Assembly: GCA_017434885.1 (NCBI GenBank) | Contig: JAFSGE010000056.1 | Span: 124,001 to 188,000 of the forward strand | DNA: 64,000 nt | Origin: Lachnospiraceae bacterium | GTDB lineage: Bacteria > Bacillota > Clostridia > Lachnospirales > Lachnospiraceae | Direction of reading: 5' to 3' | In this document: in pieces, positions 3,929-43,740 of the stretch | Layout of the letters: each line of letters opens with the position of its first letter | How positions within the stretch are numbered: position 1 is the stretch's first letter | Notes under the pieces: model-generated | Databases searched by the model: none | What the model was told of the DNA's origin: nothing | What the model saw: only the letters and a program-made list of their open reading frames with translations | Program-made: the position numbers and the translations under genes

Positions 3929-4044
3929 CTAATACTCCAGCATATTTTCAATAAATATCCCATACCCCCTTGTTGGATCATTCACTAAAACGTGAGTAAC
4001 AGCACCCACAATTCGCCCATTTTGGACTATGGGGCTGCCCGACA
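3929..4044 (-). pseudogene. Relic of the spoIVB 3' end (duplicated 36-codon tail)
   Basis: The minus strand reads [18 protein letters not shown] and onward to IENMLEY and a TAG stop. It matches the last 36 residues of the intact spoIVB at 7175, except the final residue. At DNA level 3941-4044 aligns without gaps to 7187-7290, with 13 differences in 104 bases. All differences inside the shared codons are synonymous. Similarity stops abruptly at the catalytic-serine codon; beyond it lies unrelated sequence. Two blocks are identical: 3951-3973 and 3999-4027. This is the only gene-like content in the 361-base gap between the chemoreceptor and the XRE gene. It is probably a displaced gene end left when the neighbouring module arrived. 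Confidence 0.85.
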
Positions 4045-4114
4045 CGAATGTGTCAAGTAGGGAGCAACATTTTTCTGCAAATTTTGATATTTTTCTATAA
4101 AAACGGCAAAGTCA

Positions 4115-4149
4115 CTCCTAAATTCCGTGCAATACACAAAATTTAGGAG
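4115..4149 (-). terminator. Inverted repeat, possible terminator of the XRE-regulator gene
   Basis: A perfect 10-bp inverted repeat (CTCCTAAATT at 4115-4124, AATTTAGGAG at 4140-4149) with a 15-base loop lies 34 bases past the stop of the XRE gene. On the minus strand a TTTTT run follows only after about 10 further bases, so it is an imperfect intrinsic terminator. Confidence 0.4.
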
Positions 4150-4182
4150 CTGCTTTACTTCTACCTATCCATATAGGAACAA

Positions 4183-5346
4183 TCATTCTTCATTTATTAT
4201 CTCATTTTCATATTCTCGAATTGCCTCCTCAACACTTAAAAGCGGCAACTCTAACATAGAAACATTTTTCATATTAAAAATTATTTGTGTGCCTGCGATA
4301 TCTTGGCAAAACAAAATATCATCTGCAAATTCCGTATCTTCGTACACATAAGTATTGTATATTTCGCCTGATATAGATTCATTATATTTGAAATCAATTG
4401 AAACAGGTCTTACGCATCCATCCAAATAATATATCATAGAAATCTGTGTTTCTTCATATATTTCATCTTCAGATAATCTTTTTTTCTCAATAAATTCTTT
4501 CATAAAACTCTGAAATTGTGGTGATAAAACATCCTCATCACTTCCCTCATCCATTAGATAGCAATAATCTTCTAATACTTCATATACTACTAATGGAACT
4601 TCACCGCAATCCACTTTGTTATTCCAATTAATAAATTCTGGTTGGTCACAGTCAAAATCTGAAAATACGATTTCATTCACATTTTTCATATTAACAAATA
4701 ACACTTTGTTATTCATGCAAGGAATAACTATCCTGTCACTTTCTATCATTCTATAAACTAATTTTTTTGTGTTCCCAGTAATCGGATACCACAAAAATTC
4801 TTTACTGTTGCATAACTGAATCCCTATATGTCCCCAAAACCCACTATATTTATCGCGATTCTCGTCAGTACTATTACATATACACAAATCTAATGTTGCA
4901 ATCTGTGGTTCGAAAAAATTTTCTCCTAATAGACATTTAACACTTACAGATAAACACATTGCAATATCTCTTAATTCTGCAAGTGTCGCATTTTCTCCAG
5001 CATCAATCTCCATTAAACGTGTTAATGGAATACCTGTTGCTTTTGCTATTTCTTTTGAACTTACTTTCATCAGATTGCTTATTTCTCTAGTACGAATATA
5101 TTTATTTTTTATATTACCCAATAGCATATCTGCAGAAATAGAAAGATATTCCATTATCTTTGCCATGTGTTTTTCATAATTTATTTTACTAGTTGATGTT
5201 CCGGTTAGTAATTTATCTAAAGTCGGTCTTGATACCCCTACTTTTTTTGATATTTCGACTTTAGTATAACCCCTATCAATAATAATCTTCTCTAGTCTTA
5301 TACCTACTACACTTCTTCTATCAAACAAATCACCTACGCTATACAT
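4183..5346 (-). CDS. Double-XRE DNA-binding protein with a duplicated C-terminal domain of unknown function
   Basis: A 387-residue protein. Two Cro/C1-type helix-turn-helix segments are visible, at about 14-76 (TKVEISKKVGVSRPTLDKLL) and about 82-141 (SSKEIAKATGIPLTRLMEI). The C-terminal part is not a family I recognise, but it contains two related halves, each ending in a similar strand: VLFVNMKNVNEIVF and IIFNMKNVSMLEL. The C-terminus is acidic. The start is ATG 5346 with GGGAGG seven bases upstream, and it has its own sigma-A promoter. It probably regulates its own gene and perhaps the neighbouring ATPase unit; the C-terminal duplicated domain could sense a ligand or partner. That function is inference. 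Confidence 0.8.
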   Translation of the reverse strand: MYSVGDLFDRRSVVGIRLEKIIIDRGYTKVEISKKVGVSRPTLDKLLTGTSTSKINYEKHMAKIMEYLSISADMLLGNIKNKYIRTREISNLMKVSSKEIAKATGIPLTRLMEIDAGENATLAELRDIAMCLSVSVKCLLGENFFEPQIATLDLCICNSTDENRDKYSGFWGHIGIQLCNSKEFLWYPITGNTKKLVYRMIESDRIVIPCMNNKVLFVNMKNVNEIVFSDFDCDQPEFINWNNKVDCGEVPLVVYEVLEDYCYLMDEGSDEDVLSPQFQSFMKEFIEKKRLSEDEIYEETQISMIYYLDGCVRPVSIDFKYNESISGEIYNTYVYEDTEFADDILFCQDIAGTQIIFNMKNVSMLELPLLSVEEAIREYENEIINEE

Positions 5347-5376
5347 AAATAAGCCTCCCTTTCTTTTGTTTTTTTC

Positions 5377-5405
5377 ATTTTATCATACGCCGTTTTGTTT
5401 GTAAA
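5377..5405 (-). promoter_or_regulatory. Sigma-A promoter of the double-XRE regulator gene
   Basis: On the minus strand TTTACA (5405-5400), a 17-base spacer and TAAAAT (5382-5377) lie about 30 bases upstream of the ATG. The upstream stretch is rich in TTTTTAC/GTAAA words that could hold operators, but no clean palindrome was found. Confidence 0.65.
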
Positions 5406-5459
5406 TATGTTTTTTACTTTTTTACATTTTGTTTTTTACAATTTGGAATTGTTTATTAA

Positions 5460-5490
5460 AATAGGGTTCCGCAATTCGCGAAACCCTATT
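5460..5490 (-). terminator. Intrinsic terminator of the ATPase/92-residue gene pair
   Basis: AATAGGGTT (5460-5468) pairs with AACCCTATT (5482-5490), with an inner CGC/GCG extension, and is followed on the minus strand by TTTTAAT. It sits 11 bases after the stop of the 92-residue protein and before the promoter of the XRE gene, so these are separate transcription units. Confidence 0.7.
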
Positions 5491-5500
5491 AATATTTTTA

Positions 5501-5779
5501 CTAAAAGTCTTCCTTTTCTAACATTTCAGCCTTATCCCAATCGGAACCAAACATACTTGATAATGAAACCAGTTGTGCCACAAAATCTCTATCTTCTTCG
5601 TTTTCTGAAAAATACCAATTCAATAGCGTATAAATTCTATTGTTTACTTCCTTATTGATTATTTTCATTGTTTCATCATCAAGGCAAACTCCCTCTGCAT
5701 GTAAATCTTCTACAACAGTATTTCTGTATACTAAATGCGTTAATGCTCTTGACAATGTCTGTAATAACTCTTCATCCAT
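5501..5779 (-). CDS. Small acidic protein of unknown function
   Basis: A 92-residue, mostly helical, acidic protein without a signal peptide or membrane helix. I do not recognise the family. The start is the ATG at 5779 (MDEELLQTLSRAL) because AAGGAG lies eight bases before it; a longer frame would overlap the upstream ATPase and has no such site. It follows the AAA/DUF4143 ATPase by 25 bases, so the two are probably co-transcribed and may act together. The content (LTHLVYRNTVVEDLHAEG, then NNRIYTLLNWYF) suggests a small folded helical bundle. Function is unknown. Confidence 0.7.
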   Translation of the reverse strand: MDEELLQTLSRALTHLVYRNTVVEDLHAEGVCLDDETMKIINKEVNNRIYTLLNWYFSENEEDRDFVAQLVSLSSMFGSDWDKAEMLEKEDF

Positions 5780-5804
5780 TTCGAATTCTCCTTCAAATCG
5801 TAGA

Positions 5805-7034
5805 CTACAATTCCTTATTCTCTGCAATATATTGAACTAAATTGCAATGATGTATACCATCCCTTTTCTGCAATAACTGATCTAAGGTAAACAAATACTT
5901 CGGATAATTATCACGAATTTTTGCAAATGGTCTGTACTCTCTATCTTCTGTTACCTTATCCATAATTGTCATTGCAACTTGAATATATTGGTAAATATCA
6001 TTTTTTCTTGTAATAAAATCACACTCAAGAGTTCCTATTCTTCCAACACTTAACTGATATCCTTTTGCCCGAAGATAAGTATAAATGATATTTTCTAAAA
6101 CCGGACCATAATTTATACGAGTATCGGTATTACGTGCAAAATAGATTCCCAAATCAGCCAAATAATACTTTTCATCTCCGCGCAAGGCTTTTTTTGAACG
6201 CAAGTCAAATCTTGGACATTTGTATATAATTTTGGCCTTTTCCAAAATTTCTATATATGTTCTAAGTGTTTCTCTTTTTATCGGAATTCCTTCCTCCTTA
6301 TTAAAATATTCAAGAACATTTGACAGGCTTGTTGTAGCGCCAAAATTATTTATAATGTAATTCATTATTTTATCAAAAACTGATTTGTTACGTATCTTTC
6401 GATGCTTAACAATATCTTTATCTATAATCTGCTCTATAACACTTTTGACATATAAATCTTTATCATCATTATTAATAAATTCCAGTGTTTTAGGAAAGCC
6501 ACCATAACGAATATATTCACTAAATTCTTCCATTTTATTTTCATTAACCGGAAGATTTCTAAATTTTTTCATTTCCAAAAACTCATAGAAGTTTAAAGGA
6601 AACATCTCAACCTCTATATATCTACCGGTTAACTTAGTGGCAAGTTCTCCACTTAATAAATAAGAATTAGACCCTGTAATAAATACAGAAAAATTTCCTT
6701 CTTCCCGATATGCATTGATTACTGTTTCAAAGCCATCCACATTTTGAATTTCATCAATAAAAAGATATTTAAAATCATTGTCTTTTATTTTCTCATCAAT
6801 TATCTTTTCTAGCTGTTCTGGTGTTTTGATACTTTTATATCCCTTTTTATCTAAGTTTATTTGTATAATATCTTTTTCCTTAACACCTTGCATTATTAAC
6901 CTATCGATTATTGATAGAAGAAAGCAAGATTTACCACAACGGCGAATACCAGTAATTACTTTAATTAAATCGCTATCAATAAATCCTTCAATCTTATCCA
7001 TATAATACTGTCTTATATAAATTTTATTATTCAT
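5805..7034 (-). CDS. AAA_14 / DUF4143 family ATPase
   Basis: A 409-residue P-loop ATPase. Walker A is GIRRCGKS (29-36), Walker B is LFIDEIQ (91-97), followed by a sensor strand VFITGSNSYLLSGELATKL and a TGRYIEVEMFPLNFYEF block typical of the AAA_14 family. The C-terminal half (about 200-370) matches DUF4143, including ILEKAKIIYKCPRFD and LENIIYTYLRAKGYQ, which resembles a PD-(D/E)XK-like fold. Members are common in accessory DNA of gut Clostridia and Bacteroidetes; their function is not established. The start is ATG 7034 with GGAGG. Its composition is AT-rich compared with spoIVB, consistent with acquisition. Confidence 0.9.
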   Translation of the reverse strand: MNNKIYIRQYYMDKIEGFIDSDLIKVITGIRRCGKSCFLLSIIDRLIMQGVKEKDIIQINLDKKGYKSIKTPEQLEKIIDEKIKDNDFKYLFIDEIQNVDGFETVINAYREEGNFSVFITGSNSYLLSGELATKLTGRYIEVEMFPLNFYEFLEMKKFRNLPVNENKMEEFSEYIRYGGFPKTLEFINNDDKDLYVKSVIEQIIDKDIVKHRKIRNKSVFDKIMNYIINNFGATTSLSNVLEYFNKEEGIPIKRETLRTYIEILEKAKIIYKCPRFDLRSKKALRGDEKYYLADLGIYFARNTDTRINYGPVLENIIYTYLRAKGYQLSVGRIGTLECDFITRKNDIYQYIQVAMTIMDKVTEDREYRPFAKIRDNYPKYLFTLDQLLQKRDGIHHCNLVQYIAENKEL

Positions 7035-7084
7035 TGCATACCCTCCATATGCAATATCATATATTATCTCTTTATTTTTTACAA

Positions 7085-7131
7085 GTTAAGGGTGTATTTT
7101 TTTAATATTTTTTCTTTTATACCCCCTTAAC
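7085..7131. repeat. Inverted repeat between spoIVB and the ATPase gene
   Basis: GTTAAGGGTGTAT (7085-7097) and ATACCCCCTTAAC (7119-7131) form a 13-bp inverted repeat with one mismatch around a T-rich 21-base loop. It lies between the spoIVB stop and the ATPase start. It could terminate spoIVB, be an operator for the ATPase unit, or mark a module end; the sequence does not decide. Confidence 0.5.
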
Positions 7132-7174
7132 ATTTGCTTTAATTATCATAACTCTTCAGCACCTCAAGTCCTTC

Positions 7175-8488
7175 TCAATGCTCTAACATATTCTCTATAA
7201 ATATCCCATACCCCCTTGTCGGATCATTGACAAGCACATGTGTTACAGCACCCACAATTCGCCCATTTTGGACGATGGGACTTCCCGACATTCCCTGTAC
7301 GATTCCTCCTGTTGTTGCAAGCAAATCCTCATCGGTAATCTTTAAAACAATTCCCCTGTTCACATTATCATTTTCCAAATGAATATCCGTAATCTCCACA
7401 TCATATACCTTGGTTTCCGCACCCAAAGAACAAATAATCTGTGCTTCACCTTCCTGAATCTCATGTTTTAAACCAATCGGCATATATTCATACTCATTTT
7501 GACTGATAATTTCCTGAGAACAGACACCGTAAATCCCCTTTGCCGTGTTTGCAGTAATGGTTCCCAGTATATTATTGTCATCATACTCAATAAATCCGGT
7601 CAGTTCTCCCGGTGCCCCGTTTCTTCCCCTTGTGATACCTATAATCTCGGTGTGGTACAATGTTCCGCCTGAAAGCTCCATAAGTTCACTGGTATCCACA
7701 TCATTGATACCGTGTCCCAAAGCTCCAAAGCAACCACTTTCATCAATATATGTCATGGTACCTACCCCTTGAGCATTATCTCTGACCCAGATTCCCATTT
7801 TATACTCCCCGTTTAAATTCAATTCCGGTTTTGCCTGTACATCAAAAATCTCTTCCTCTCTCCGAATCTTAAAAACAATTTCCTGTCCTTCGCAGTGACT
7901 GATATTTTCAATCAACTGCTTTTTACTCTCCAGTATTTCCTCATTCATTTCCAAAATATAATCTCCCGGCTTAATTACATACTTTGCCGGCTCATGTATT
8001 TGTCCGTCTTCCCCTTCAAATTCACCTACGCCAACTACCAATACACCTGCTGTCTTTACGTAAATTCCCACCGGAATTCCGGAAGGCTTCAGCTTAATAT
8101 CCTGTATTACCTTGACATCCACCTCTTTTAGCGGAATAACTCCAAACAGCTTTAGGTTCATGGTATAGTTGTCAATCTGGTTTGCCTTTACCGTAATGGG
8201 GACACTGAAATCAATTTCTACACTCTCTTGTTTTGCAGAACTTGCAGATTTTGCAACACCGCTTGTCAAAAGAGCCTCTTCCCGATAAAGTCTGCCCGAT
8301 GCAGGTAATTTAAAATCGAGAGTCTGAGTAGTCCCTGCCTTTACCATAATTGTAGACGGTATACGGCTCCACATGGTGTAATAAACGGAAAACACCGTAA
8401 GAACAATCCCTGCAATCAATAATATATATAAAATTTTTCTGTATAACAAAAGTCTGAAAGAATTGCTTTCTATTCTATTAATTTTCAA
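7175..8488 (-). CDS. spoIVB: SpoIVB serine peptidase (S55)
   Basis: About 437 residues. In sporulators SpoIVB is secreted from the forespore into the intermembrane space and cleaves SpoIVFA, which activates pro-sigma-K processing. There is one N-terminal membrane anchor, a PDZ region containing GIPVGIYVKTAGVLVV, catalytic His in GALGHGIND and catalytic Ser in GMSGSPIV. I chose the TTG at 8488, about eight bases after AAAGGA. A longer frame from TTG 8527 would begin inside the recN terminator and has no ribosome site. Its 3' end (7187-7290) is the second copy of the duplicated tail. spo0A, the usual next gene, is replaced by the inserted module. Confidence 0.93.
   Translation of the reverse strand: MKINRIESNSFRLLLYRKILYILLIAGIVLTVFSVYYTMWSRIPSTIMVKAGTTQTLDFKLPASGRLYREEALLTSGVAKSASSAKQESVEIDFSVPITVKANQIDNYTMNLKLFGVIPLKEVDVKVIQDIKLKPSGIPVGIYVKTAGVLVVGVGEFEGEDGQIHEPAKYVIKPGDYILEMNEEILESKKQLIENISHCEGQEIVFKIRREEEIFDVQAKPELNLNGEYKMGIWVRDNAQGVGTMTYIDESGCFGALGHGINDVDTSELMELSGGTLYHTEIIGITRGRNGAPGELTGFIEYDDNNILGTITANTAKGIYGVCSQEIISQNEYEYMPIGLKHEIQEGEAQIICSLGAETKVYDVEITDIHLENDNVNRGIVLKITDEDLLATTGGIVQGMSGSPIVQNGRIVGAVTHVLVNDPTRGYGIFIENMLEH
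7187..7290 (-). repeat. Right copy of the 104-bp spoIVB-tail duplication
   Basis: This part of the functional spoIVB aligns without gaps to 3941-4044 (91 of 104 bases identical). It encodes the segment from the catalytic serine to the penultimate residues. The pair bounds the AT-rich module. Confidence 0.85.
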
Positions 8489-8520
8489 ATTTTCACATCC
8501 TTTTTTGTACTTTCCGAAAT

Positions 8521-8553
8521 AAAACAAAGAGACACACTTAACGCATGTCTCTT
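8521..8553 (-). terminator. Intrinsic terminator of recN
   Basis: AAGAGACA (8546-8553 read on the minus strand) pairs with TGTCTCTT (8527-8534), followed by TGTTTTATTT. It lies about 70 bases after the recN stop and 33 bases before the chosen spoIVB start. Confidence 0.8.
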
Positions 8554-8620: not shown

Positions 8621-10303
8621 TCATTGTTTTGCTTTCCCGGCAAGCTGTCTCATTTCTGCCGCATTGCTGAGAACCGCCTCTGTCACACTATCTCCGCCCA
8701 AAAGTCTTGCAAGTTCATCCAGCATTTGCTTATCCTCTAATGGAACAATTTGTGTCGCTGTACGGTCATTCACCACGTTCTTTTCAATTAAAAAATGAGT
8801 ATCAGCCATAGCTGCAATTTGAGGCAGATGTGTAATACAGATAATCTGGTGTTCTTTAGAAAGCTGCCCTAATTTTTCCGATACCTTCCAAGCGGTTCTC
8901 CCACTGATTCCTGTATCAATTTCATCAAAAATCAAAGTATCCGTTCCTTCTTCGTCTGCAAACACGCTCTTAAACGCAAGCATAATTCGGGAAAGTTCAC
9001 CACCACTGGCAACCATCTGCAAAGGTTGCTTCTTTTCTCCCGGATTGGTTGAAATCAAAAAACCAATTTTGTCATAACCGTCTTCTGCGAAATGCTCCGC
9101 ATCCGGTTCAACACTAATCTCAAAGTCCACATCCAAAAAGTTTAAATCCACAAGTGCTTCTGTCAGTTTTTTGGTCAGTACTGTCGCTGCACTCATTCTT
9201 TTTTCAGATATTTGCCTGCAGAGTTCCAGAATCTGTGTTTTTTCCTGATTTATTTTTTGCTCTAAATTCTGCAAATATTCTTCATAGTGAGCCAACTGTT
9301 CCAGACGCTCAGTTTTCATGGTAAGTGCTTCCTGTAATTTTTCATAGGAATTACCATATTTATCCTTCAATCTGTTAATCAGGTTCAAACGCTCCTGCAC
9401 TTGAATGAACTCTTCTTCATCGAACTCAAGACTTTCGCTGTAATTAGCCAAACTTCTGTTAAAATCATTCAGCAAATTGTCAATTTCCGCAAGTTGATCG
9501 CAAAGCTCCTGCGCGTCCTCTTCATAACTTCCTACGCTCCGAAGTTCACGAAGCGCTCTCCCCACAGCTTCTCCAGCACAGCCTGCATTATCATATCCGG
9601 TAAGACTGTGTGTGAAATAAACAGCTTCTTTAATCTTCTTTGCATTGGACATTCTGCGATATAACTTTTCAAGCTGCTCATCTTCCCCCTGCACAATTGC
9701 AGCGCTTTCCAGTTCATTTACCTCAAACTGCAGTAAATCAGCTTCCCTTTTTCTGGCATCCTCATCCATTCTGTTATCGTCAAGCTCTGCTTTTGCCATT
9801 TGATAGTCTGTATATATTTTTTTTAATTCTTTTTTTAATGCTGATACTCCGTCACCCGCATAATCATCCAGCATCGCCTTATGCTTTGCCGGTTTTAACA
9901 GAGATTGATGCTCGTGCTGCCCGTACATATCAAGCAGCACACCGGCCAGTGCACGAAGTTGCCCGCTGCTCACCGTCTCGCCGTTTACTTTACAGGTACT
10001 TCTCGCCGGAGCAATCTTTCTCTGTAGCAAAAGCGTGCCATCCTCTTCTGTGGGAAGCTCCATCTCTTCAAGCACTCTGCACTGCTTCGCATTCAGTGAA
10101 AAAATAAGCTCTACCAAAGCATATTCCGCTCCGTTTCGGATGTAATCCTTATCAGCCTTTGCTCCAAGCGCCAAATTAATGGAACCGATAATAATCGATT
10201 TACCTGCACCGGTTTCTCCCGTTAATATATTAAGGCCATCGGTAAATGTTACCTCGGCCTCATCAATTAATGCCAGATTTTTCACATGTAAACTCTCAAG
10301 CAT
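8621..10303 (-). CDS. recN: DNA repair protein RecN
   Basis: A 560-residue SMC-like ATPase acting early in double-strand-break repair. The Walker A motif GETGAGKSIIIGSIN lies near residue 30. A long coiled coil fills about 150-370. The C-terminal lobe has the ABC signature ASGGELSRIMLAFK and the Walker B DTLIFDEIDTGISG, followed by ICITHLPQIAAMADTHF. Length is normal for the family (about 555). The start ATG 10303 has AGGAGG upstream. It is co-directional with argR (25-base gap) as in other Firmicutes. Confidence 0.97.
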   Translation of the reverse strand: MLESLHVKNLALIDEAEVTFTDGLNILTGETGAGKSIIIGSINLALGAKADKDYIRNGAEYALVELIFSLNAKQCRVLEEMELPTEEDGTLLLQRKIAPARSTCKVNGETVSSGQLRALAGVLLDMYGQHEHQSLLKPAKHKAMLDDYAGDGVSALKKELKKIYTDYQMAKAELDDNRMDEDARKREADLLQFEVNELESAAIVQGEDEQLEKLYRRMSNAKKIKEAVYFTHSLTGYDNAGCAGEAVGRALRELRSVGSYEEDAQELCDQLAEIDNLLNDFNRSLANYSESLEFDEEEFIQVQERLNLINRLKDKYGNSYEKLQEALTMKTERLEQLAHYEEYLQNLEQKINQEKTQILELCRQISEKRMSAATVLTKKLTEALVDLNFLDVDFEISVEPDAEHFAEDGYDKIGFLISTNPGEKKQPLQMVASGGELSRIMLAFKSVFADEEGTDTLIFDEIDTGISGRTAWKVSEKLGQLSKEHQIICITHLPQIAAMADTHFLIEKNVVNDRTATQIVPLEDKQMLDELARLLGGDSVTEAVLSNAAEMRQLAGKAKQ

Positions 10304-10328
10304 TTATATTTCCTCCTGTGTATGTCGG

Positions 10329-10781
10329 TTATTCCTCCAATACACTGCGTATTTCTTCCATAATACTCTTTGTATCATCTACTGTCCGCACAGCCACCAT
10401 AATGGTATCATCACCTGCAATGGAACCTACAATTTCTTTTAATTTCATGGCATCAACCGCAGCCGCAACTGCCATTGCCATGCCTGATACCGTCTTTATC
10501 ACCAGAATATTCTGTGCCATATCCATAGAGACAAAACCGTCTTTTAATACTCGGATATACTTATCGCTCAAATAGTGGTCGTTGTGTACCAAAACGGTAT
10601 ATTTCTGCCTTCCGTCTTTCATGGGAATCTTTGACAGCTTCATTTCCCTGATGTCTCTGGAAACCGTTGCCTGAGTCACCTCATAACCGGCTTCTTTGAG
10701 TCTGTCAACCAACTCTTCCTGGGTTTCAATTTCAAACTGTTCAATCAGTTCTTTAATTTTTCGGTGTCTGTTTTTTTTCAT
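10329..10781 (-). CDS. argR: Arginine repressor ArgR/AhrC
   Basis: A 150-residue repressor. The N-terminal winged helix (about 1-70, TQEELVDRLKEAGYEVTQA) binds ARG boxes. The C-terminal domain (about 80-150) forms the arginine-binding hexamer and carries the conserved GSIAGDDTIMVAVR. It represses arginine synthesis and activates catabolism when arginine is present. The gene sits between nadK and recN, its common place in Clostridia. The start ATG 10781 has AGGAAG nearby. Confidence 0.96.
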   Translation of the reverse strand: MKKNRHRKIKELIEQFEIETQEELVDRLKEAGYEVTQATVSRDIREMKLSKIPMKDGRQKYTVLVHNDHYLSDKYIRVLKDGFVSMDMAQNILVIKTVSGMAMAVAAAVDAMKLKEIVGSIAGDDTIMVAVRTVDDTKSIMEEIRSVLEE

Positions 10782-10839
10782 GGTCTTCCTATGCCTTTCT
10801 GCCTAAGTTTCTCCTTTGGCATCCATGCCTGTGCTTATG

Positions 10840-11673
10840 CTAATCGCTCATTTTCTGATGAAGTATCTCCAAAAAGCTTGCCTTATTCAGCTTTACGATT
10901 CCCGTTGTTTTATCGGAACGCCTGATAACAATTCTGTCTCCCGTGTACAAAGTCACTCTATGGCTACCGTCAAAGATTGCCTCAACTTCCTGCTCCACAC
11001 CATCATGTCCTGTTTCAATTTCAATGGTAATCTCATCTTCCGGAGAAAGAATGATGCTTCGATGCTGCATGGAATGCGGACATATCGGAGACATCACAAT
11101 AAGCTCTGCTTTCGGGTCCACCACCGGACCGCCCGCTGACAAATTATATCCTGTGGAGCCGGTTGGCGTTGCCACAATCATACCGTCTGCATGATACTTA
11201 TGTAAAAATTGTCCGTTAACACTAATGTTAAACTTGATAATCTGCAAGGAACCTTTACGGGTAATGACAATATCATTGAGTGCACGGGTATTGTCCTTTT
11301 CCCCCGCCTCATCATAACTGTATCCGACCAGCATCATTCTCTTCTCAATTTCATATTCTCCTAAAAGAATGTTGCCAAGTGCCTCCTCAATATCATCCTT
11401 GTTTACTTCCGTCAAAAATCCCAGTGTTCCTAAATTAATGCCCAAAAAAGGAACATTCATATCCGCAAGATCTACTGCCGCCTGTAAAAGCGTACCGTCT
11501 CCGCCAAGCACCAGCACGCAGTCTGCACCTTGCTGCACCGAATTTTTATCAATATGTCTTTCGGCGCAAACCGTGCACATTTTTCCATGAGCTTCCAAAT
11601 AATCTTTTATCTGATTGGTAACCTGAAACTCCGGGTCTTTTGTCTGATTTGTAATAATGTGAAAATGCTCCAT
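10840..11673 (-). CDS. nadK: NAD kinase
   Basis: ATP-dependent NAD kinase, the source of NADP. The GGDGT motif is present (LVLGGDGTLLQAAVD), as is the conserved PTGSTGYNLSAGGP loop. The start is uncertain: GTG at 11694 directly follows the tlyA stop, ATG 11685 is also open, and ATG 11673 (MEHFHIITNQTKD) matches where the family usually begins, with GAGAGG 13 bases upstream. I chose 11673, giving 277 residues. It is translationally close to tlyA and belongs to the same operon. Confidence 0.93.
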   Translation of the reverse strand: MEHFHIITNQTKDPEFQVTNQIKDYLEAHGKMCTVCAERHIDKNSVQQGADCVLVLGGDGTLLQAAVDLADMNVPFLGINLGTLGFLTEVNKDDIEEALGNILLGEYEIEKRMMLVGYSYDEAGEKDNTRALNDIVITRKGSLQIIKFNISVNGQFLHKYHADGMIVATPTGSTGYNLSAGGPVVDPKAELIVMSPICPHSMQHRSIILSPEDEITIEIETGHDGVEQEVEAIFDGSHRVTLYTGDRIVIRRSDKTTGIVKLNKASFLEILHQKMSD

Positions 11674-11694
11674 CGCAATGTTCATACCTCTCAC

Positions 11695-12579
11695 TTATAA
11701 ATTCTGATGGGCCTTGCCGACTGTAGTTTTAATTTCTTTCATCATTTCTTCTCTAAAGGAATAACCGCTTTTATTTTCTGTTATAAATCTAAGCTGTCCT
11801 TCGGCGTCAGCTTCCGTTATATGTGCTGTATGCGCTGCCTTCTCATCTTCCTTGCGAAGATGCACCAAATACTCAATATTGCCTTCCGGACCTTTTATCG
11901 GCGAAAAGTCCAAATGCAAAACCGTAAATCCGATAAAATCTGCAAAGTCTATTACTTTGCAAATCACTTCTTCGTGAATTTCCGGTTCTCTCACCACACC
12001 TTTTTTTCCCACCTTGTCTTTGCCCGCTTCAAACTGCGGCTTTATCAGACATACCATTTCTCCCCTATCGGCAAGAAGCTCTCTGGCAGGTATTAAAATT
12101 TTGGTCAGAGATATAAACGAAACATCTACGGATGCAAAATCAAGCACATCCTCAATATCTCCCGGCACCATATAACGGAAATTTGTTTTTTCCATGCAGA
12201 CCACGCGCTCATCATTTCTCAATTTCCAATCAAGCTGACCGTGCCCCACGTCCACGGAATACACCTTCTTTGCCCCGTTTTGAAGCATACAGTCCGTAAA
12301 ACCTCCGGTGGATGCACCGATATCCATACAGACTTTATCTGTAAGGTTTAAGCCAAACTGCTTCATTGCCTTTTCTAACTTAAGACCGCCCCTGCTTACA
12401 TAAGGCAATGTACTTCCTCTGACTTCTAACTTTATTTTGGACAAATCAAAGGTGGTTCCTGCTTTATCTTCACGCTGCCCGTCCACGAAAACATTTCCTG
12501 ACATAATAATTGCCTTGGCTTTTTCACGGGAGGCGGCATACCCTTCTTGTACCAATATTACATCTAAACGCTCTTTCAT
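11695..12579 (-). CDS. tlyA: TlyA family rRNA 2'-O-methyltransferase (hemolysin A family)
   Basis: A 294-residue protein with an N-terminal S4 RNA-binding domain (about 3-65, RLDVILVQEGYAASREKAK) and an FtsJ-like methyltransferase domain containing the SAM motif DIGASTGGFTDCML. Homologues methylate ribosomal RNA; YqxC is the Bacillus member. The stop of dxs and the ATG share an ATGA overlap, indicating translational coupling. Confidence 0.94.
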   Translation of the reverse strand: MKERLDVILVQEGYAASREKAKAIIMSGNVFVDGQREDKAGTTFDLSKIKLEVRGSTLPYVSRGGLKLEKAMKQFGLNLTDKVCMDIGASTGGFTDCMLQNGAKKVYSVDVGHGQLDWKLRNDERVVCMEKTNFRYMVPGDIEDVLDFASVDVSFISLTKILIPARELLADRGEMVCLIKPQFEAGKDKVGKKGVVREPEIHEEVICKVIDFADFIGFTVLHLDFSPIKGPEGNIEYLVHLRKEDEKAAHTAHITEADAEGQLRFITENKSGYSFREEMMKEIKTTVGKAHQNL

Positions 12580-14447
12580 TCTTTCATTGTTTCCATTTCT
12601 TTCAAAATTCGGCTTACAATGCTCTCTTCATCCATTTCGATTTCTTTTTTGAGCAAATCTACATTGCCGTGCTCTACATATTCATCGGGAATGGTCACAT
12701 TTATCAATTTGCTTCCAAAAGTAAGAGTATCCATATAATCTCTTACCTTTTCACCATAACCGCCGCTTGCTACATTTTCTTCCATTGTCACAACCAGCTT
12801 GTGATTCTTTGCAGCCCAGTATACCGCATCTTCATCAATTGGTTTAATAAATCTGCCGTTAATCAGACTGCACTTATATCCTGCTTCATGCAAAAGTTCC
12901 CGCACTTTCTCCGCGGATTTTACCATGCTTCCTACTGCAAGCAGACAGATTTCACCCTCAGCGTAAATAGCCTCTGCCTTAAAAGCTTCAATAGGTGCAC
13001 GATATTCTTCCAGCCCTGCATATGCCTCTCCTCTGGGATAGCGTACCGCTATGGGTGCCCCAAACGAAACTGCAAACTTCATCATATCGGAAAGCTCCCA
13101 TTTATTTTTGGGTGCCATTACATGCATGTTGGGAATGGAAGATAAATAGGACAAATCAAAAATCCCCTGATGGGTCTCTCCGTCGCTTCCCACCAATCCT
13201 GCCCTGTCAATGGCAAATACCACCGGCAGATTCTGAATACACACATCGTGCAGAATCTGGTCATATGCTCTTTGCAGGAAAGAAGAATAAATTGCCACAA
13301 CGGGTTTCAGTCCGCCTGCAGCCAGTCCTGCCGCAAAGGTTACTGCATGTTCTTCCGCAATTCCTACATCAAAAAATCTGTCAGGATAAAGGTTTCTGAA
13401 ACGCTTCAACCCCGTGCCGTCCGGCATTGCCGCCGTAATGGCAACCACCTTTTCGTCCCTTGCCCCTAACTTTGTCATAACTGTTGAAAAAATATCGGTA
13501 TAATTTGCCACCGTTCTCGGCTTTGTGGGAATACCTGTTTCCACATTAAAAGGTTCTGCCCCATGGAATCTGGCAGGATGACGTTCAGCAGGTGCAAATC
13601 CTTTTCCTTTTTGGGTAATTACATGCACCAATACTGCATTTCTCACGCGCTTTGCTTCCTGGAACATCTGAAGCATTGCCGGAATATTATGTCCGTCAAC
13701 AGGTCCGAGATATGTGATACCCATATCTTCAAAAAACATTCCGGGAACAACAAGATGCTTAAAGCTGCTCTTTGCTTTTCGAATTCCTTCTACCACCTTG
13801 CCACCATACTTAGGCATATCTTTAAGAGTTTTATACACACCTTCTTTGATATCCAGATAGGTATCCGCTGTACGGATATTGTTGAGGTATTTTGATACGC
13901 CACCCACATTTTCGGATATGGACATATTATTATCATTCAGAACAATAATGAAATTCGTCTCCATTTTTGCCGCATTGTTTAGAGCCTCGTAAGCCATACC
14001 GCCTGTCAGGGAACCGTCTCCGATTACGGAAATAATATTGTGATTCAATCCCTGAATATCTCTTGCTTTCACCAAGCCAAGACCTGCGGAAATAGAAGTA
14101 GAGCTGTGCCCGGTATCAAAACAGTCACAATCACTTTCTTTCCGTTTGGGGAATCCGCTCATTCCGTGATATTTGCGCAGATTCTCAAATCCGTCTCTGC
14201 GTCCTGTCAATAATTTATGGGTATAAGACTGATGTCCTACATCCCATACAATCTTATCTTCCGGCAACTGAAATGCCAGATGAAGTGCCATAGTAAGCTC
14301 CACCGCCCCCAAATTTGAGCCTAAATGTCCACCTGTTTTGGAAATCTTCTCTATCAAAAACTGTCTGATTTCTTCCGCAAGCTCCGGATAACATTCCGGT
14401 CTTATGTTCTTAATATCATTCGCTTTTTTGATATTGTCAAGTAACAT
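12576..14447 (-). CDS. dxs: 1-deoxy-D-xylulose-5-phosphate synthase
   Basis: A 623-residue TPP enzyme that condenses pyruvate with glyceraldehyde-3-phosphate, the first step of the MEP isoprenoid pathway. Visible motifs are GHQSYTHKLLTGR, the TPP-binding GDGSLTGGMAYEALNNA with NNNMSIS, the transketolase Pyr-domain GIAEEHAVTFAAGLA and DRAGLVGSDGETHQG. Length is normal. It is clustered with ispA, linking synthesis of the C5 units to prenyl chain building. The start is ATG 14447 with GAAGGG upstream. Confidence 0.98.
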   Translation of the reverse strand: MLLDNIKKANDIKNIRPECYPELAEEIRQFLIEKISKTGGHLGSNLGAVELTMALHLAFQLPEDKIVWDVGHQSYTHKLLTGRRDGFENLRKYHGMSGFPKRKESDCDCFDTGHSSTSISAGLGLVKARDIQGLNHNIISVIGDGSLTGGMAYEALNNAAKMETNFIIVLNDNNMSISENVGGVSKYLNNIRTADTYLDIKEGVYKTLKDMPKYGGKVVEGIRKAKSSFKHLVVPGMFFEDMGITYLGPVDGHNIPAMLQMFQEAKRVRNAVLVHVITQKGKGFAPAERHPARFHGAEPFNVETGIPTKPRTVANYTDIFSTVMTKLGARDEKVVAITAAMPDGTGLKRFRNLYPDRFFDVGIAEEHAVTFAAGLAAGGLKPVVAIYSSFLQRAYDQILHDVCIQNLPVVFAIDRAGLVGSDGETHQGIFDLSYLSSIPNMHVMAPKNKWELSDMMKFAVSFGAPIAVRYPRGEAYAGLEEYRAPIEAFKAEAIYAEGEICLLAVGSMVKSAEKVRELLHEAGYKCSLINGRFIKPIDEDAVYWAAKNHKLVVTMEENVASGGYGEKVRDYMDTLTFGSKLINVTIPDEYVEHGNVDLLKKEIEMDEESIVSRILKEMETMKE

Positions 14448-14476
14448 CTCTTCGCCCTTCTTTTCTTAGGTTATTG

Positions 14477-15394
14477 CTATTTTTCTCTGGTTATCAGTGA
14501 CTCAATCAATTCTATCAAAAAGGTATCCCTATCCTTGTCTTTCTTCTGAACATAATATGTTAAGGTTTCAATAGCCTCCCTTGAAAGACGCTCCACTTCT
14601 TTTTTCGAAGTTTCCAGCCCCTTTAAGGTCACGTAAGTAAGCTTGTTATTTTTTTCATCGCTTCCTACCGGCTTTCCAAGCACCTCCGTGGTACTTGTCA
14701 CGTCAAGGACATCATCCTGAATTTGGAAGGCAATACCGATATTGTAAGCAACCTGTTCCATGGCTTTTACATCATCATCCGAAGCCCCTGCCAGGGTTGC
14801 TCCTATCATCATGGCCGCCTGAATCAGTGCCGCTGTTTTATTTTCGTGAATAAACAATAATACTTCTTCTGTCAGCAGATTTTGATTTTCTTCTGCTTCA
14901 ATATCTGCGGTCTGTCCGCCAATCATACCATAAACACCGGCTTTATTGCCTAAAATCTGAAGCGCCTTTGCAACACGCTTTATCACAGTTATATCTTCTG
15001 TCATATCAAAAGCTTTTGCAGCAGTTTCATACGCCAAATTGAGAAGACCGTCTCCTGCCAGTACCGCCATTCCTTCTCCGTAAACCGTCCATGTTGTTTT
15101 GCGGCCTCTGCGATACATGTCATTATCCATTGCCGGAAGGTCATCATGCACTAAGGAATAATTATGAATCATTTCCAGTGCCGCCATAAAAGGATACACT
15201 ATCTCGCCTTCTCCTCCAAACAGTTTAAAGCATTCCTCCATTATCATAGGGCGAAGCCTCTTACCTCCTGCGGTCACGCTGTAATTCATCGCTTCCAAAA
15301 CCGTTTTCTGATAGCCGGTCTCTTTTGGCAGAAATCCGGTAAGTACTTCCTCAATATGGTCTACTCTTCTACCCAGCTGCTCTTTAAAACTCAT
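14477..15394 (-). CDS. ispA: Polyprenyl (farnesyl/geranyl) diphosphate synthase
   Basis: A 305-residue trans-isoprenyl diphosphate synthase. It has GGKRLRP, the first aspartate-rich motif DDLPAMDND and the second DDVLDVT, which bind magnesium and the diphosphate substrates. The length and context between xseB and dxs point to farnesyl diphosphate synthase; chain length cannot be proved by eye. The start ATG lies inside the 3' end of xseB (11-base overlap). Confidence 0.95.
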   Translation of the reverse strand: MSFKEQLGRRVDHIEEVLTGFLPKETGYQKTVLEAMNYSVTAGGKRLRPMIMEECFKLFGGEGEIVYPFMAALEMIHNYSLVHDDLPAMDNDMYRRGRKTTWTVYGEGMAVLAGDGLLNLAYETAAKAFDMTEDITVIKRVAKALQILGNKAGVYGMIGGQTADIEAEENQNLLTEEVLLFIHENKTAALIQAAMMIGATLAGASDDDVKAMEQVAYNIGIAFQIQDDVLDVTSTTEVLGKPVGSDEKNNKLTYVTLKGLETSKKEVERLSREAIETLTYYVQKKDKDRDTFLIELIESLITREK

Positions 15395-38456: not shown

Positions 38457-41329
38457 CTGGGAACCTCCACCATAATATAAGCTTCCACAATATCAAGTTC
38501 CTGCATCTGGTCAAAGCCTTCAAATACAAGACCACATTCAAATCCTGCTCTGACTTCTTTTACGTCATCTTTAAATCTCTTTAAGGACTTCAGCTCACCT
38601 TCGTAAATCTGATTTCCTTCTCTGCTGATACGAACCTTACAGTCTCTCTGGAAGGTACCGTCAAGCACGTAGGAACCTGCAATATTACCAACCTGAGACG
38701 CCTTGAAGATTTGTCTTACTTCTGCGTGACCGATTACCTTTTCCTCAAAGATAGGATCAAGCATACCCTTCATGGCAGCTTCGATATCTTCAATTGCCTG
38801 ATAGATAACCTTATAAAGCTTCACATCAACGCCTTCACGCTCTGCAATCGCCTTTGCTGTGGCATCGGGACGTACATTAAACCCGATAATAATTGCATTG
38901 GATGCAGATGCTAAGGTCACGTCGGATTCGTTTACGGCACCTACGCCGCCGTGGATACATTTTACCACAACTTCTTCGTTGGAAAGCTTCATGAGACTCT
39001 GCTTCACAGCTTCCACACTACCCTGAACGTCTGCCTTAACAATAATGTTCAGTTCTTTCAGATTACCTGCCTGAATCTGGGTAAACAAATCATCCAGAGA
39101 CATTTTTGCTTTGGTTTCTTCCAGCATCTTTTCTTTGTTCTGAGCCAGGTAGGTTTCTGCATAAGATTTTGCCTGCTTATCACTTTCATGGGCAATAAAC
39201 ACTTCACCTGCACTGGGTACATCGGAAAGACCTAAAATTTCTACAGGTGTAGAAGGTGTTGCTTCTTTTACCCTTCTTCCCTTGTCATCAATCATGGCTC
39301 TTACTTTACCGTGGCTTGCGCCTGCAGAGATAAAGTCACCCACATGCAGCGTACCCTTCTGTACCAAAACGGTTGCGACAGGACCACGTCCCTTGTCAAG
39401 CTCAGCCTCGATAACAAGACCTCTTGCTCTTCTGTCAGGATTTGCCTTCAGTTCCATAATTTCGGAAGTGAGCAGAATGGTTTCCAGAAGGTCTTCAATA
39501 CCTTCTCCTGATTTCGCGGATACCGGTACAAATTCCGTACTTCCGCCCCAGTCTACGGGAATCAGTTCGTATTCTGTCATTTCCTGCTTCACTCTGTCGA
39601 TGTTGGCACTGGGCTTATCAATCTTGTTAACAGCCACAATAATTTCAATTCCCGCTGCCTTAGCATGGTTAATTGCTTCCACTGTCTGAGGCATTACACC
39701 GTCGTCTGCCGCAACTACCAAAATTGCAATATCGGTAGAATTTGCACCACGCATACGCATAGCCGTAAAGGCTTCATGTCCCGGTGTATCAAGGAATGTA
39801 ATGGTCTGACCGTTAATAGTTACAGTATACGCACCAATGTGCTGTGTAATACCTCCGGCTTCTTTGTCTGTTACGTTTGTCTTACGGATTGCATCCAAAA
39901 GGGATGTTTTACCATGGTCAACGTGACCCATAACACAAATTACGGGAGGTCTGCTTACTAAGGATTCTTCCGCCTCGTCTTCTTCTTTCAGAAGTTCTTC
40001 GATAACGTCAACCTTCACTTCTTTTTCACAAATAATTTCATATTCGATTGCAATGTTCTCTGCATCTTCAAAAGAAATTTCAGAGTTTACGGTTACAATC
40101 TGTCCCTGAAGGAACAGTTTTTTGATAATCACGGATGGCTGCATCTTCATCTTATCAGCCAAATCCTTAATGGTAAGTGATTCCGGAATGGTAATTACCT
40201 TAATCTGTTCTTCTGCAACAGTTTCTACTTTCTTTTCCGGTTTGATAAACTTACCGGGTTTATTCTTACCCTTTACTGCTCCATCCTCTTCTTCATAGAA
40301 GAAATCTTTTCTTGACTTTTTGTCACGTTCCTGATTGCTTCTGCGCTTTTCATCAGTTCTGGGTTTTTCCATGTCTTTAACGGGAGCTTCCGGAATGAAA
40401 CTCTTACCCGGCTTTTCAGGTTTTCTGAATCGAGCATCCTGCCCGCTGTTTCCTTTTTCAGGACGAGCACCACCTTGAGCAGGTCTGCCGCCGCCTTGAT
40501 GATTGCTGCCAGTGCGGAAATCGCCCCTGCCGTTCTGACCATTCTGGCGATTACCGAAAGAGCCTCCTCTGCCTTCATTTCTCTGACCTCTTTGTTCCTG
40601 ATTGTTTCCGGAGTTTCCTGCATTTCTTTCATTTCTGGGATATCTCTCCTCTTTTACAGGTGTCTTCTGCACATGCTGCTGTGTTTCCGATGCAACAGAT
40701 TCTGCAGATGCTACAGTCTTAGCAACCTCTCTATTTTCCTTCTGGGCTGCAGCATTTTTTGCTGCAATCCTTTCGTTTTCCATTCTTCTTGCATTTTCCT
40801 TAAAATCAGGTTTTATGCTGTCCGGCACGGAAGGCGCAGTAAGCGGTCTGATAATCTTGTGAGGTGCCTCCTGCACTCTTCCCTGGGCAGGATGGTTGCC
40901 GCCTCCCTGGGGTCTGTTTCCCTGATTTGCATTCTGGGCGGGACGTCTCTCGCCACCCTGACGCTGTCCGGGAATATTGCTGTTGTGAGGATTGCTCACA
41001 AAGATAATTTTCTTTTTCTTCTTAGGTGCTTCCTGCACAGGTGTTACCGCTTTTTCTTCCTTTGCAGGTGCCTTTTCTTCTTTTACCATTTCTGCTTTCT
41101 CTGCAGTAGCCACAGGCTTTTCAGCTGCAGGTGCGCTTTCTTTTGCAGATATATCATCTGCTTTAGATGTCTGCTGTCCGAAAGCTTTTTTTACCATATT
41201 GACTGCATCGTCCTCTACAGAACTCTGAGCCGCTTTTACTTCAATACCTTTATCCTGTAAAAAGGCAATGATTTCTTTGCTTTGCATATTCAATTCCTTT
41301 GCAAGTTCATGCACTTTCATTTTTGCCAT
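38453..41329 (-). CDS. infB: Translation initiation factor IF-2
   Basis: A 958-residue GTPase that delivers initiator tRNA. An IF2N motif occupies the start ([19 protein letters not shown]). A long low-complexity segment rich in Ala, Lys, Gln, Asn, Gly and Arg fills about 55-370. A second IF2N lies near 385 and the G domain near 460-620 ([34 protein letters not shown]). The C-terminal initiator-binding domains are present. The N-terminal extension is long but within the range of Lachnospiraceae. Confidence 0.98.
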
Positions 41330-41344
41330 TTATTTACCTCCGTC

Positions 41345-41659
41345 TCATTTGAAAGCTTCCAAATTTTTTACTATGTTTGCTGCCATCCCTTGATCCGTCA
41401 CCGCTATTGATGCTCTCATCTGCTTACCGATTGCTTTTCCAAGTGATTCTTTATCACTGTAAAAATAAATCGGTATATTTCGATAGTTGCACATATTGGT
41501 AAACATCTTTTTGGTATTGTCGGATGCATCTACCCCCACAATCACCAGTGCAGCTTTTCCCTCTTTGATTGCTTTTTCTGTTGAAAATTCACCGCTCACC
41601 AGATTTCTTCCTCTGGCCGAGAGCCCCAACAGGGATAATACTTTATCCATTTTCTTCAT
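41345..41659 (-). CDS. L7Ae-family ribosomal protein YlxQ
   Basis: About 104 residues, L7Ae/L30e fold, binding kink-turn RNA (KVLSLLGLSARGRNLVSGE, then ALVIVGVDASDNTKKMF). I chose ATG 41659 (MKKMDKVLSLL), four bases after AAGGAG; ATG 41650 is possible. It overlaps the end of ylxR by 17 bases and precedes infB, as in Bacillus. Confidence 0.93.
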   Translation of the reverse strand: MKKMDKVLSLLGLSARGRNLVSGEFSTEKAIKEGKAALVIVGVDASDNTKKMFTNMCNYRNIPIYFYSDKESLGKAIGKQMRASIAVTDQGMAANIVKNLEAFK

Positions 41660-41912
41660 CAAACTCCTTTTCCAGGCTGTCATAGACATCATTTGGAATG
41701 CTCATTTTAAAAGACCGTTCCAATCCTTTATTTTTTCTGGCTTTTATCAGACACTCTTTGGAAATACAAAGATATGCCCCTCTGCCGTTTTTCTTGCCTG
41801 TTTTATCCAGTGTAATGGTATCTTCCGGTGTTTTCAGCACACGCATCATCTCTTTTTTGCTTTTCATTTCACCGCAGCCCACACACTGCCTTAAGGGAAT
41901 TTTTTTTGCCAT
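41643..41912 (-). CDS. YlxR family RNA-binding protein
   Basis: An 89-residue YlxR protein (CVGCGEMKSKKEMMRVLKTP, then KKNGRGAYLCISKECL). The conserved GRGAYLC motif is intact. It lies between nusA and ylxQ; the family is linked to RNA binding and in Bacillus to regulation of many genes. Confidence 0.95.
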   Translation of the reverse strand: MAKKIPLRQCVGCGEMKSKKEMMRVLKTPEDTITLDKTGKKNGRGAYLCISKECLIKARKNKGLERSFKMSIPNDVYDSLEKEFDEENG

Positions 41913-41927
41913 ACAGATGCTCCTTTC

Positions 41928-43082: not shown

Positions 43083-43133
43083 TTTTTCCTTATCCCTTTC
43101 CGTCCATTCTATGTATGGACTATCCTATTCTTG

Positions 43134-43601: not shown

Positions 43602-43643
43602 TCTTTCACCTCTCTTACCGTTTGTTCCCTCATTACTTCAACA

Positions 43644-43671
43644 AAAAAGTGGACTTGCCAGCCCACTTTTT
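43644..43671 (-). terminator. Intrinsic terminator upstream of rimP
   Basis: AAAAAGTGG (43644-43652) pairs with CCACTTTTT (43663-43671), with T's after it on the minus strand. It ends the CPBP gene but also lies downstream of the promoter at 43696-43724, so it could attenuate rimP operon transcription. Confidence 0.75.
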
Positions 43672-43695
43672 AGTAATCATCTTTAATTCTTCCTT

Positions 43696-43724
43696 ATCTT
43701 AGCACTGTTTTCCGGGGAAATCAA
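43696..43724 (-). promoter_or_regulatory. Candidate promoter for the rimP-nusA-infB operon
   Basis: TTGATT (43724-43719), 17-base spacer, TAAGAT (43701-43696) on the minus strand. It lies between the CPBP stop and the hairpin. Confidence 0.5.
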
Positions 43725-43740
43725 TAGATTTTCCCAAATT

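Follow-up and report, generated by a model that had tools for sequence, protein, structure and literature searches.

A complete spoIVB gene is followed by a second copy of its tail

The window analysed here is a stretch of 64,000 nt from Lachnospiraceae bacterium (GCA_017434885.1, contig JAFSGE010000056.1, positions 124,001-188,000, forward strand). It holds a complete spoIVB gene and, beyond it, an orphan copy of the spoIVB tail (Table 1). Self-comparison of the window identified a direct repeat, 3931-4044 against 7177-7290; the first-pass annotation had counted 91 identical positions over 104 nt of it, and we obtained the same figure over those 104 nt. The stretch from TG to stop is identical at 98 of 116 positions. 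Both copies stop at the TG that precedes the codon of the catalytic Ser, where a sharp break had been reported. Outside the repeat, the adjoining 60 nt show no relationship on one side (22% identity) or the other (23%), so the repeat ends are indeed sharp. The two copies had been said to differ only synonymously. This is true of codons 1-36, where all 13 codon differences are silent, and hence of the stretch originally quoted, but not of the last residue: codon 37 reads His in spoIVB but Tyr in the orphan copy, and different stop codons are used. A search of the same genome (assembly 94.5% complete, 58 contigs) with whole SpoIVB gave two places at E <= 0.001, the sole full-length match being 7175-8527.

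Table 1. Features of the spoIVB locus in the window.
Feature	Position	Strand	Basis
spoIVB, complete, 450 aa	7175..8527	-	Peptidase_S55 E=1e-83; B-B' site inside gene
B-B' junction: TG preceding the catalytic-Ser codon of spoIVB	7289..7290	-	Repeat end; crossover point from element pairs elsewhere
Functional spoIVB tail, 37 codons + stop	7175..7288	-	Tail alignment
Cargo 1: AAA_14 + DUF4143 ATPase, candidate phage-defence family PDC-S01	5805..7034	-	Pfam; PADLOC
Cargo 2: small ORF, 93-108 aa	5501..5827	-	Relatives in L129
Cargo 3: 387-aa protein with Cro/C1-type HTH	4183..5346	-	HTH_26 E=3.3e-7
P half-site GTTGCTCCCTACTTGACACATTCGTG, cassette right end; TG = 4043-4044	4043..4068	-	P pattern match
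Orphan spoIVB tail (tail part of P-B' site), frame open to stop	3929..4042	-	Repeat and protein search

The interval between the tails is AT-rich, as had been noted, with a G+C content of 0.28-0.33 per 500 nt against 0.36-0.47 in the surroundings, and neither its ORFs nor Pfam revealed a recombinase, again in agreement with the first reading. Promoter and terminator scans gave nothing above shuffled sequences. The orphan tail is adjoined by a feature that had been overlooked, a half-site P (GTTGNNCC..TGACA..TG) whose pattern matches once in the 64 kb against 0.07 matches expected; its first 19 nt are identical with those of recombinase-triplet elements at two other loci (L244 and L176, see below). 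Cargo 1 matches the PADLOC model PDLC04787 over residues 1-406 (E=4.8e-141) and has relatives behind P-tails at two loci, L190 and L196 (82% amino acid and 76% nucleotide identity). Relatives of cargo 2 occur at L129 (52-61%) and L229 (39%), its 93-aa form having no Pfam family, and no relatives of cargo 3 were found in the loci searched.

The arrangement is widespread in Clostridia

The repeat in the window belongs to an arrangement that is widespread in Clostridia, often with several cassettes per array; neither this recurrence nor the linked recombinase triplet had been recognized in the first-pass annotation. Its proposal of an element that carries its own spoIVB tail is supported, and neither of the findings it had named as refuting was obtained. 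A pattern of P plus tail matched at least 118 genome stretches and 3 viral contigs. Conservation of TG, GTTG and TGACA among these loci is partly built in, since all three are part of the search pattern, but a TG had been noticed in front of every undecayed extra tail before the pattern was built. In seven other genomes, the extra tails whose starts are intact set in at the Ser codon or no more than two residues from it.

Across 129 loci, 207 tails (a number that includes L228, L233 and L126, which duplicate other loci) comprised 149 P-B' sites, in which the tail B' follows P, 42 B-B' sites in intact spoIVB, 15 unclassed tails and 1 at an edge. All tails of each of the 63 multi-tail loci lie on one strand, and in 38 loci spoIVB has P-B' as its next tail. 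With repeat loci L228 and L233 left out, 75 units of 212-10034 nt (median 2010) are enclosed between tails, 16 of them bounded on one side by an unclassed or edge tail. ORFs of at least 80 aa in the units, picked mechanically, number 138 on the tail strand and 33 on the opposite one; the cargo scan covered 148 of 159 ORFs of at least 90 aa. The frame is kept open in 131 of 137 P-B' tails. Cassette interiors are common to different genomes at 91-99% identity. The genes behind spoIVB vary greatly between related genomes. Judged at the level of sequence, cassette ends are formed by the conserved P, the TG and the spoIVB tail B', and arrays follow spoIVB in direct order. Two genomes depart from this order and count against the insertion model given below. 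In G375, a whole spoIVB without a cassette lies beside spo0A on one contig and a three-tail array on another, with no spoIVB in the preceding 4.7 kb; in G782, triplet and P-B' stand without spoIVB across 27 kb to the contig end. An ORF after the tail of L149 has only 24% identity to Spo0A of G375, and L149 carries no weight in the spo0A search because this ORF was itself among the queries. A 26-nt run shared by some tails was absent from the viral contigs scanned.

Relatives do not share the double-tail layout throughout. A tail search of 397 family genomes, one per species, matched 252, of which 243 have a single tail, although two genomes listed with one match (G202 and G280) each have a P-tail. 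Among the genomes compared, no clean case was found of an empty site for exactly this cassette. After spoIVB of G280, the response-regulator (87%) and kinase (65%) genes of the window follow from 1.25 kb, with no second tail at that place; we regard this as suggestive of an empty site and not a clean one, because its SpoIVB is 50% identical and the chemotaxis gene of the window had no match within the 16 kb examined.

Right borders are exact and left borders are blurred

The right ends of shared elements were compared in 24 pairs from 17 loci, which overlap and are not independent (L228, L233, L126, L172 and L199 left out). Before the Ser codon the identity is 0.96-0.99 per 15-nt bin, reaching 1.00 at the last base of the TG and dropping to 0.62 at the next base; past the TG it is 0.62-0.82 per bin, slightly above the 0.60-0.71 of random P-B' pairs. 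Near-identical element ends thus lie before different tails in different hosts. The left ends are blurred. In nine pairs that share the sequence after the tail, identity drops inside the tail, and the first 75 nt of the tail are 0.72-0.83 identical in eight of them; L174/L191 (0.99) departs from this, as does L174/L213, the latter judged by eye and with one indel. Since left-end identity falls inside the tail, most shared cassettes lack the common tail that a pure model predicts. A target-site-duplication model was rejected, as the tails flanking a recently shared cassette differ (0.77 at L187).

Tails appear to be exchanged, and neither window tail stands out as the older, both being equally near to tails from other genera. 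Across 86 genes, up to 30 of them from loci chosen for high tail similarity, tail identity tracks body identity weakly, with a mean tail identity of 0.71 in genes whose bodies are 0.3-0.4 identical, rising to 0.75 (bodies 0.7-0.8), 0.78 (0.8-0.9) and 0.87 (above 0.9). This trend is not used as proof because it fits tail exchange but also saturated silent sites. Close to the crossover, B' shows no conservation at third codon positions, and the idea that silent B' sites mark DNA recognition was dropped.

A triplet of serine recombinases is linked to P-B'

Three large serine recombinase genes precede the P-tail in 10 of the 121 pattern loci (from the at least 118 genome and 3 viral matches; a match at L207, 35% over 115 aa, was left out), at a distance of at most 351 nt in 9 of the 10. 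All three proteins have the Resolvase, Recombinase and Zn-ribbon composition and belong to one clade. When relatives of the third, LSR3, were found by protein, P-B' followed LSR3 in eight of nine evaluable cases; at L261, a triplet relative (60%), no tail occurs in the 715 nt after LSR3. LSR3 has only relatives below 36% among plasmids, and of its matches in phage records one reached 51.5%. Three adjacent Resolvase-Recombinase genes at an element end, a trait of ICE-type serine-integrase triplets, are a feature of the helper loci and not of the window cassette, whose genome gave no LSR3 match at 1e-120, and no locus among those examined held spoIVB, triplet and P-B' together.

These features suggest with good confidence that 4043-7174 is a cassette between spoIVB tails, inserted by a serine-recombinase system that lands in spoIVB; movement of cassettes by the triplet is likely. 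We infer that the triplet would recombine two TGs, one in spoIVB (B-B') and one in a circular cassette (P-B'). The exchange would yield, on the left, an intact spoIVB carrying a new tail (B-B') and, on the right, P-B' again; both sites would be regenerated because they share the B' side. The gene would stay whole and the site would never be consumed. As each insertion would rebuild spoIVB and leave a P-tail, cassettes without an enzyme of their own could accrete in trans, and be gained or lost in this way. Homologous recombination between tandem tails may additionally remove cassettes and mix tails. The first-pass annotation had offered a decayed or a helper-dependent element. The latter is probably correct, whereas a decayed one-off does not fit an arrangement that is widespread and often multi-cassette. 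With no close LSR3 relative in the same genome (none at 1e-120), the window cassette would have to stay where it is until the genome acquires a triplet element.

Alternative explanations

RecA crossing-over between spoIVB tails could move cassettes without a dedicated recombinase, the tail serving as a portable homology arm. The left borders, blurred inside the tail, speak for this, and tails within a locus are closer (spoIVB tail against next P-tail, median 0.82, range 0.64-0.97) than tails taken from separate loci, which average 0.69 (sd 0.07; L228, L233 and L126 left out of the tail-identity and element-pair comparisons). We nevertheless consider homology alone unlikely, since crossing-over would bring the 5' part of the donor tail beyond the TG and the right borders are exact at it; it also leaves unexplained the P motif, noticed before any pattern was built, and the linkage of triplet and P-B'.

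Less probable still is that one prophage or ICE, now decayed and without its integrase, inserted at the 3' end of spoIVB. Elements at 3' gene ends commonly supply a replacement end, the interval holds no recombinase, and some contigs classed as viral likewise carry triplets of the spoIVB type, but 111 of the 121 pattern loci (at least 118 genome and 3 viral matches) have no triplet in the stretch examined, many have several units in a row, and Pfam found no phage or conjugation family in the three cargo proteins of the window. That the gene end was duplicated in tandem and captured cargo later would account for a direct repeat of the gene's own end; we give this almost no credence, because the window tails are 0.86 identical to each other and 0.82-0.85 to tails from other genera, against a recent duplication within the species, and the same element ends precede different tails.

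Implications and comparison with known systems

In the open-licence PMC literature, preprints lying outside it, we found no paper on spoIVB with a serine recombinase or integration site. We judge it an even call whether spoIVB serves as platform for a further, third type of cassette capture beside integrons and staphylococcal cassettes, with three serine recombinases and Clostridia as hosts. If so, about 100 species would draw on a common pool of cassettes for defence and metabolism, an integron-like swapping in anaerobic gut Clostridia marked by a short DNA signature. A recombinase could then target an essential catalytic codon while the incoming DNA restores the protein, and loss of the platform would mean loss of sporulation, since each cassette would bring a new end for the sporulation protease. 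The joint role of the three serine recombinases and the variable genes behind spoIVB become testable questions; the P-TG-tail signature may offer a route to new defence genes and the triplet enzymes an insertion tool for Clostridia.

In SCC, recombinase-less units occur and the gene end is restored. The spoIVB arrays share with SCC/ECC a complete target gene, direct repeats at both ends and tandem composites. For SCC/ECC, PMC6222049 describes large serine recombinases (CcrAB or CcrC at rlmH) whose site lies towards the 3' end of a housekeeping gene, end repeats in direct orientation and variable cargo, as here, and PMC5595907 describes composites of several elements. Unlike SCC/ECC, the tails are those of spoIVB and not the rlmH 3' end, the enzymes number three and not two, the hosts are Clostridia, and the units are small (median 2 kb), each with a whole 37-codon tail. 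The recombinases belong to another clade, since the Ccr models, which require 700-900 bits, give them no more than 50-110; the best scores among the three triplet proteins of G195 were 110 bits with the curated CcrB model (cut-off 900), 80 with CcrC (900) and 69 with CcrA (700).

Insertions by the serine-integrase triplets of streptococcal ICEs disrupt their targets (mutT, traG, hsdM), whereas spoIVB is complete here and most loci have no recombinase and often several units. Serine recombinases also act on sporulation genes in gin and in skin/SPbeta-type elements, gin in gerE having three recombinase genes (PMC5595907); such elements split the gene and excise at sporulation, whereas spoIVB is whole when the cassette is integrated, a complete and unsplit ORF that does not qualify the cassette as an intervening element.

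The spoIVB arrays resemble integrons in their small direct-order cassettes behind one platform site, with G375 and G782 as exceptions. Integrons (IntI, attI, attC) have one platform site, small one-site cassettes in direct order and an enzyme acting in trans. The spoIVB arrays differ in that the linked enzymes are serine recombinases where integrons use a tyrosine integrase, that P and a coding tail make up the cassette site in place of a folded attC, and that the platform is a sporulation gene. A CIME is an integrase-less element with att sites at both ends that is mobilised in trans, and the window cassette has site-like ends on both sides and no integrase, and may be mobilised in trans.

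A second spoIVB tail lies outside an intact gene

The first-pass annotation had claimed a direct repeat of the spoIVB 3' end, and this repeat is real: alignment within the window gave 91 identical positions of 104 (86% over 114 nt), and the sequence beyond it is unrelated at either side. The break it had placed at the catalytic-serine codon was also borne out, either copy starting at TG followed by that codon. The description of all differences as synonymous held for every residue but the last (His/Tyr). spoIVB is whole in the window, and a whole-protein SpoIVB search of its own genome (E ≤ 0.001) matched spoIVB and the orphan tail only. The two window tails have one 26-nt run in common, which also occurs unchanged in the tails of G280, G123 and G406 (L245, L246, L114), although G280 and G123 have SpoIVB bodies just 50-55% identical to the window's. 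The genes between spoIVB and glgA mostly differ between the window's genome and G003, indicating a variable region extending past the cassette.

A 45-residue tail query matched 252 of 397 same-family genomes, 9 of which, including the window's, carry more than one tail. The search was repeated on 14 selected genomes to place the extra-tail starts, which fell at query residue 7 or 8 (Gly-Met directly before Ser) in G195, G296 (three tails), G339, G375 (three), G404 and G420 and at residue 10 in G182; the pieces in G021, G053 and G406 were decayed. Whole spoIVB of G296 lies on a contig that stops 214 nt past the gene, and the tail array starts 141 nt from the end of another contig, a split expected if assembly breaks at repeats. 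In G375, spo0A lies right behind whole spoIVB with no cassette, and the three-tail array is on another contig (L105, L106); it may occupy a second place. One in-frame fusion of a tail to a cargo ORF in L105, without the half-site described below, appears to be a by-product of rearranged cassettes.

Coordinates of features in the window and in compared loci
Feature	Sequence	Position	Strand	Detail
Orphan spoIVB tail	window	3929-4042	(-)	
P half-site	window	4068-4043	(-)	GTTGCTCCCTACTTGACACATTCGTG
26-nt run identical in both tails	window	3999-4024, 7245-7270		
spoIVB-glgA interval	G000 (window's genome), C52	about 108104-131175		~23 kb
spoIVB-glgA interval	G003, C45	about 39262-50004		~10.7 kb
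Tail fused to 3' end of cargo ORF	L105 (Faecalicatena contorta ET55)	5601-6059		152-aa ORF
PDC-S01-like ATPase gene	L175	4000-5211	other strand	37%; between triplet and its P-tail
Distant triplet	L264 (IMG/VR)	9956-14970		31-33%; more recombinase genes behind, no spoIVB tail
Distant triplet	L265 (IMG/VR)	9956-14970		31-33%; more recombinase genes behind, no spoIVB tail
spoIVB-type triplet with P-tail	L268 (G782)	12798-17964		

Extra tails follow a conserved half-site and bound cassettes

The upstream sequence is alike for most extra tails and defines a half-site, P, ending in TG; no clear P precedes the extra tails of G182 and G404 or the middle one of the three in G375. Its consensus is TGTTGTCCCTAATTnnAAACACTCGTG, from 137 distinct sites that were selected by the P-plus-tail pattern. 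The P pattern matched once in the 64-kb window (0.07 expected). The P-plus-tail pattern, first tried on known loci and then run on genome_contigs and viral contigs, matched at least 118 stretches and 3 further ones, respectively. Taxa among the matches listed include Clostridia, Lachnospiraceae, Oscillospiraceae, Tyzzerella, Roseburia, Robinsoniella, Ruminiclostridium, Butyricicoccus and others; the 80 titles listed are nearly all MAGs, together with the strain F. contorta ET55. Over its first 19 nt, the window's P is the same as that of the triplet elements in L244 (G202) and L176, and its subtype recurs in 12 other loci, including L194 and L199, whose sequences are identical here.

Tail classes were assigned across the window, 121 pattern loci and 10 earlier loci (132 sequences). 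In 129 of these we counted 207 tails, including three loci that repeat others: P precedes 149 of them, 42 are the ends of intact spoIVB genes, 15 belong to neither class and 1 is at an edge. All tails lie on one strand within each of the 63 multi-tail loci, and the next tail behind spoIVB is a P-tail in 38 loci. Neighbouring tails delimit 75 units, ranging from 212 to 10034 nt with a median of 2010, of which 16 are bounded on one side by an unclassed or edge tail; their ORFs of at least 80 aa run with the tail's strand in 138 cases versus 33 opposite. P-tails, though joined to no spoIVB, keep an open frame over 34 codons at 131 of the 137 distinct sites and thus look to be kept in working order.

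Several loci from different genomes have interiors in common: L187/L191 (98.8% over 649 nt), L131/L148/L211 (91-93% over about 1.2 kb), L153/L171/L202/L204 (91-95%), L105/L178 (93% over 821 nt) and L107/L229 (94% over 1374 nt). The window ATPase gene matches the first genes behind P-tails in the Tyzzerella MAG loci L190 and L196 (76% DNA, 82% protein), neither of which has a relative of the window HTH gene. The 148 cargo ORFs scanned include AraC-type HTH (11), Fic (3) and AAA_21 (3) proteins, oxidoreductases and others, with PADLOC matches to PtuA (up to 3), SoFic (2) and PDC-S01 (2), among others. The window ATPase aligns end to end with PDC-S01, a candidate family, and is by this alignment a candidate-family member rather than a tested defence gene.

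A recombinase triplet is linked to P-tails

G195 carries a trio of large serine recombinases (555, 598 and 539 aa), each with Resolvase, Recombinase and zinc-ribbon domains, oriented towards a P-tail, the last (LSR3) stopping 41 nt short of it. The triplet, whole or in part, has relatives (45-61% identity) in 10 of 121 pattern loci (7 among the 118 genome stretches and all 3 viral ones) with order and orientation kept; LSR3 ends 28-351 nt before the tail in nine and 1.65 kb before it in L175. Since the pattern loci had been chosen by P-tail, LSR3 alone was also searched independently. At 51% or more this gave 10 partly redundant relatives: G202 and G280 (copies of one element), MT836038, G662, L237 and L262 (likewise copies), G782, L260, L261 and L263, with G782 and L237 also in the pattern set. 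P and tail lie behind LSR3 in 8 of 9 evaluable relatives, L263 being cut off and G280's tail cut by the contig end; L261 has no tail within 715 nt behind LSR3. No spoIVB tail accompanies the four relatives at 31-33% (L264-L267), and the distant triplets of L264 and L265 probably use other target sites.

A search at 1e-120 found no LSR3 relative in the window's genome, and no contig examined holds spoIVB, triplet and P-tail together. No spoIVB was found in the 4.7 kb before the G375 array or in about 27 kb before the G782 triplet; these could possibly be displaced copies, other carriers or long elements, and for the G782 triplet the options are displacement of a copy or an element of large size.

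The right border is exact at TG

If insertion occurs at TG, element copies in different hosts should match up to TG and diverge from the next base. We compared 24 overlapping, non-independent pairs from 17 loci (e.g., L103/L141, L237/L262, L154/L176/L227 and L162/L187/L218) in which the 120 nt preceding the Ser codon are 95% or more identical. Identity per 15-nt bin was 0.96-0.99 up to the junction and 0.73 in the first bin past it, with later bins at 0.62-0.82 versus 0.60-0.71 in random P-tail pairs; base by base, it fell from 1.00 at the last base of TG to 0.62 immediately after it. Of nine pairs with a common left end, eight showed 0.72-0.83 identity in the tail's first 75 nt versus 0.85-1.00 past the stop. 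The tail's end travels with the cassette while its start does not, which does not fit the mechanism proposed below; loss of a cassette by homologous recombination between tandem tails, with a hybrid tail left behind, would produce such a one-sided blur.

Site structure, arrays, the exact right border, recombinase-clade linkage and common cassettes are seen directly in the sequences. We propose that the triplet would join the spoIVB site (B-B', B' being the tail) to P-B' of a circular cassette at TG. The products would again be B-B', a whole spoIVB, and P-B', because B' is present on both partners. Such a reaction would explain why spoIVB is intact, why arrays are direct, why units lack a recombinase and why tails are maintained.

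Comparison with known systems

We found no report of spoIVB as a site of such insertion in the open-licence literature. The enzyme module is of the same known kind as the ICE serine-integrase triplets, which disrupt their targets (PMC4701971). Unlike skin or gin, the spoIVB system does not split its gene. It works like both SCC/ECC and integrons, but SCC/ECC uses the rlmH site, which is not the site here, and the spoIVB-linked recombinases fall short of the Ccr models; the comparison with SCC/ECC and gin draws on PMC6222049 and PMC5595907.
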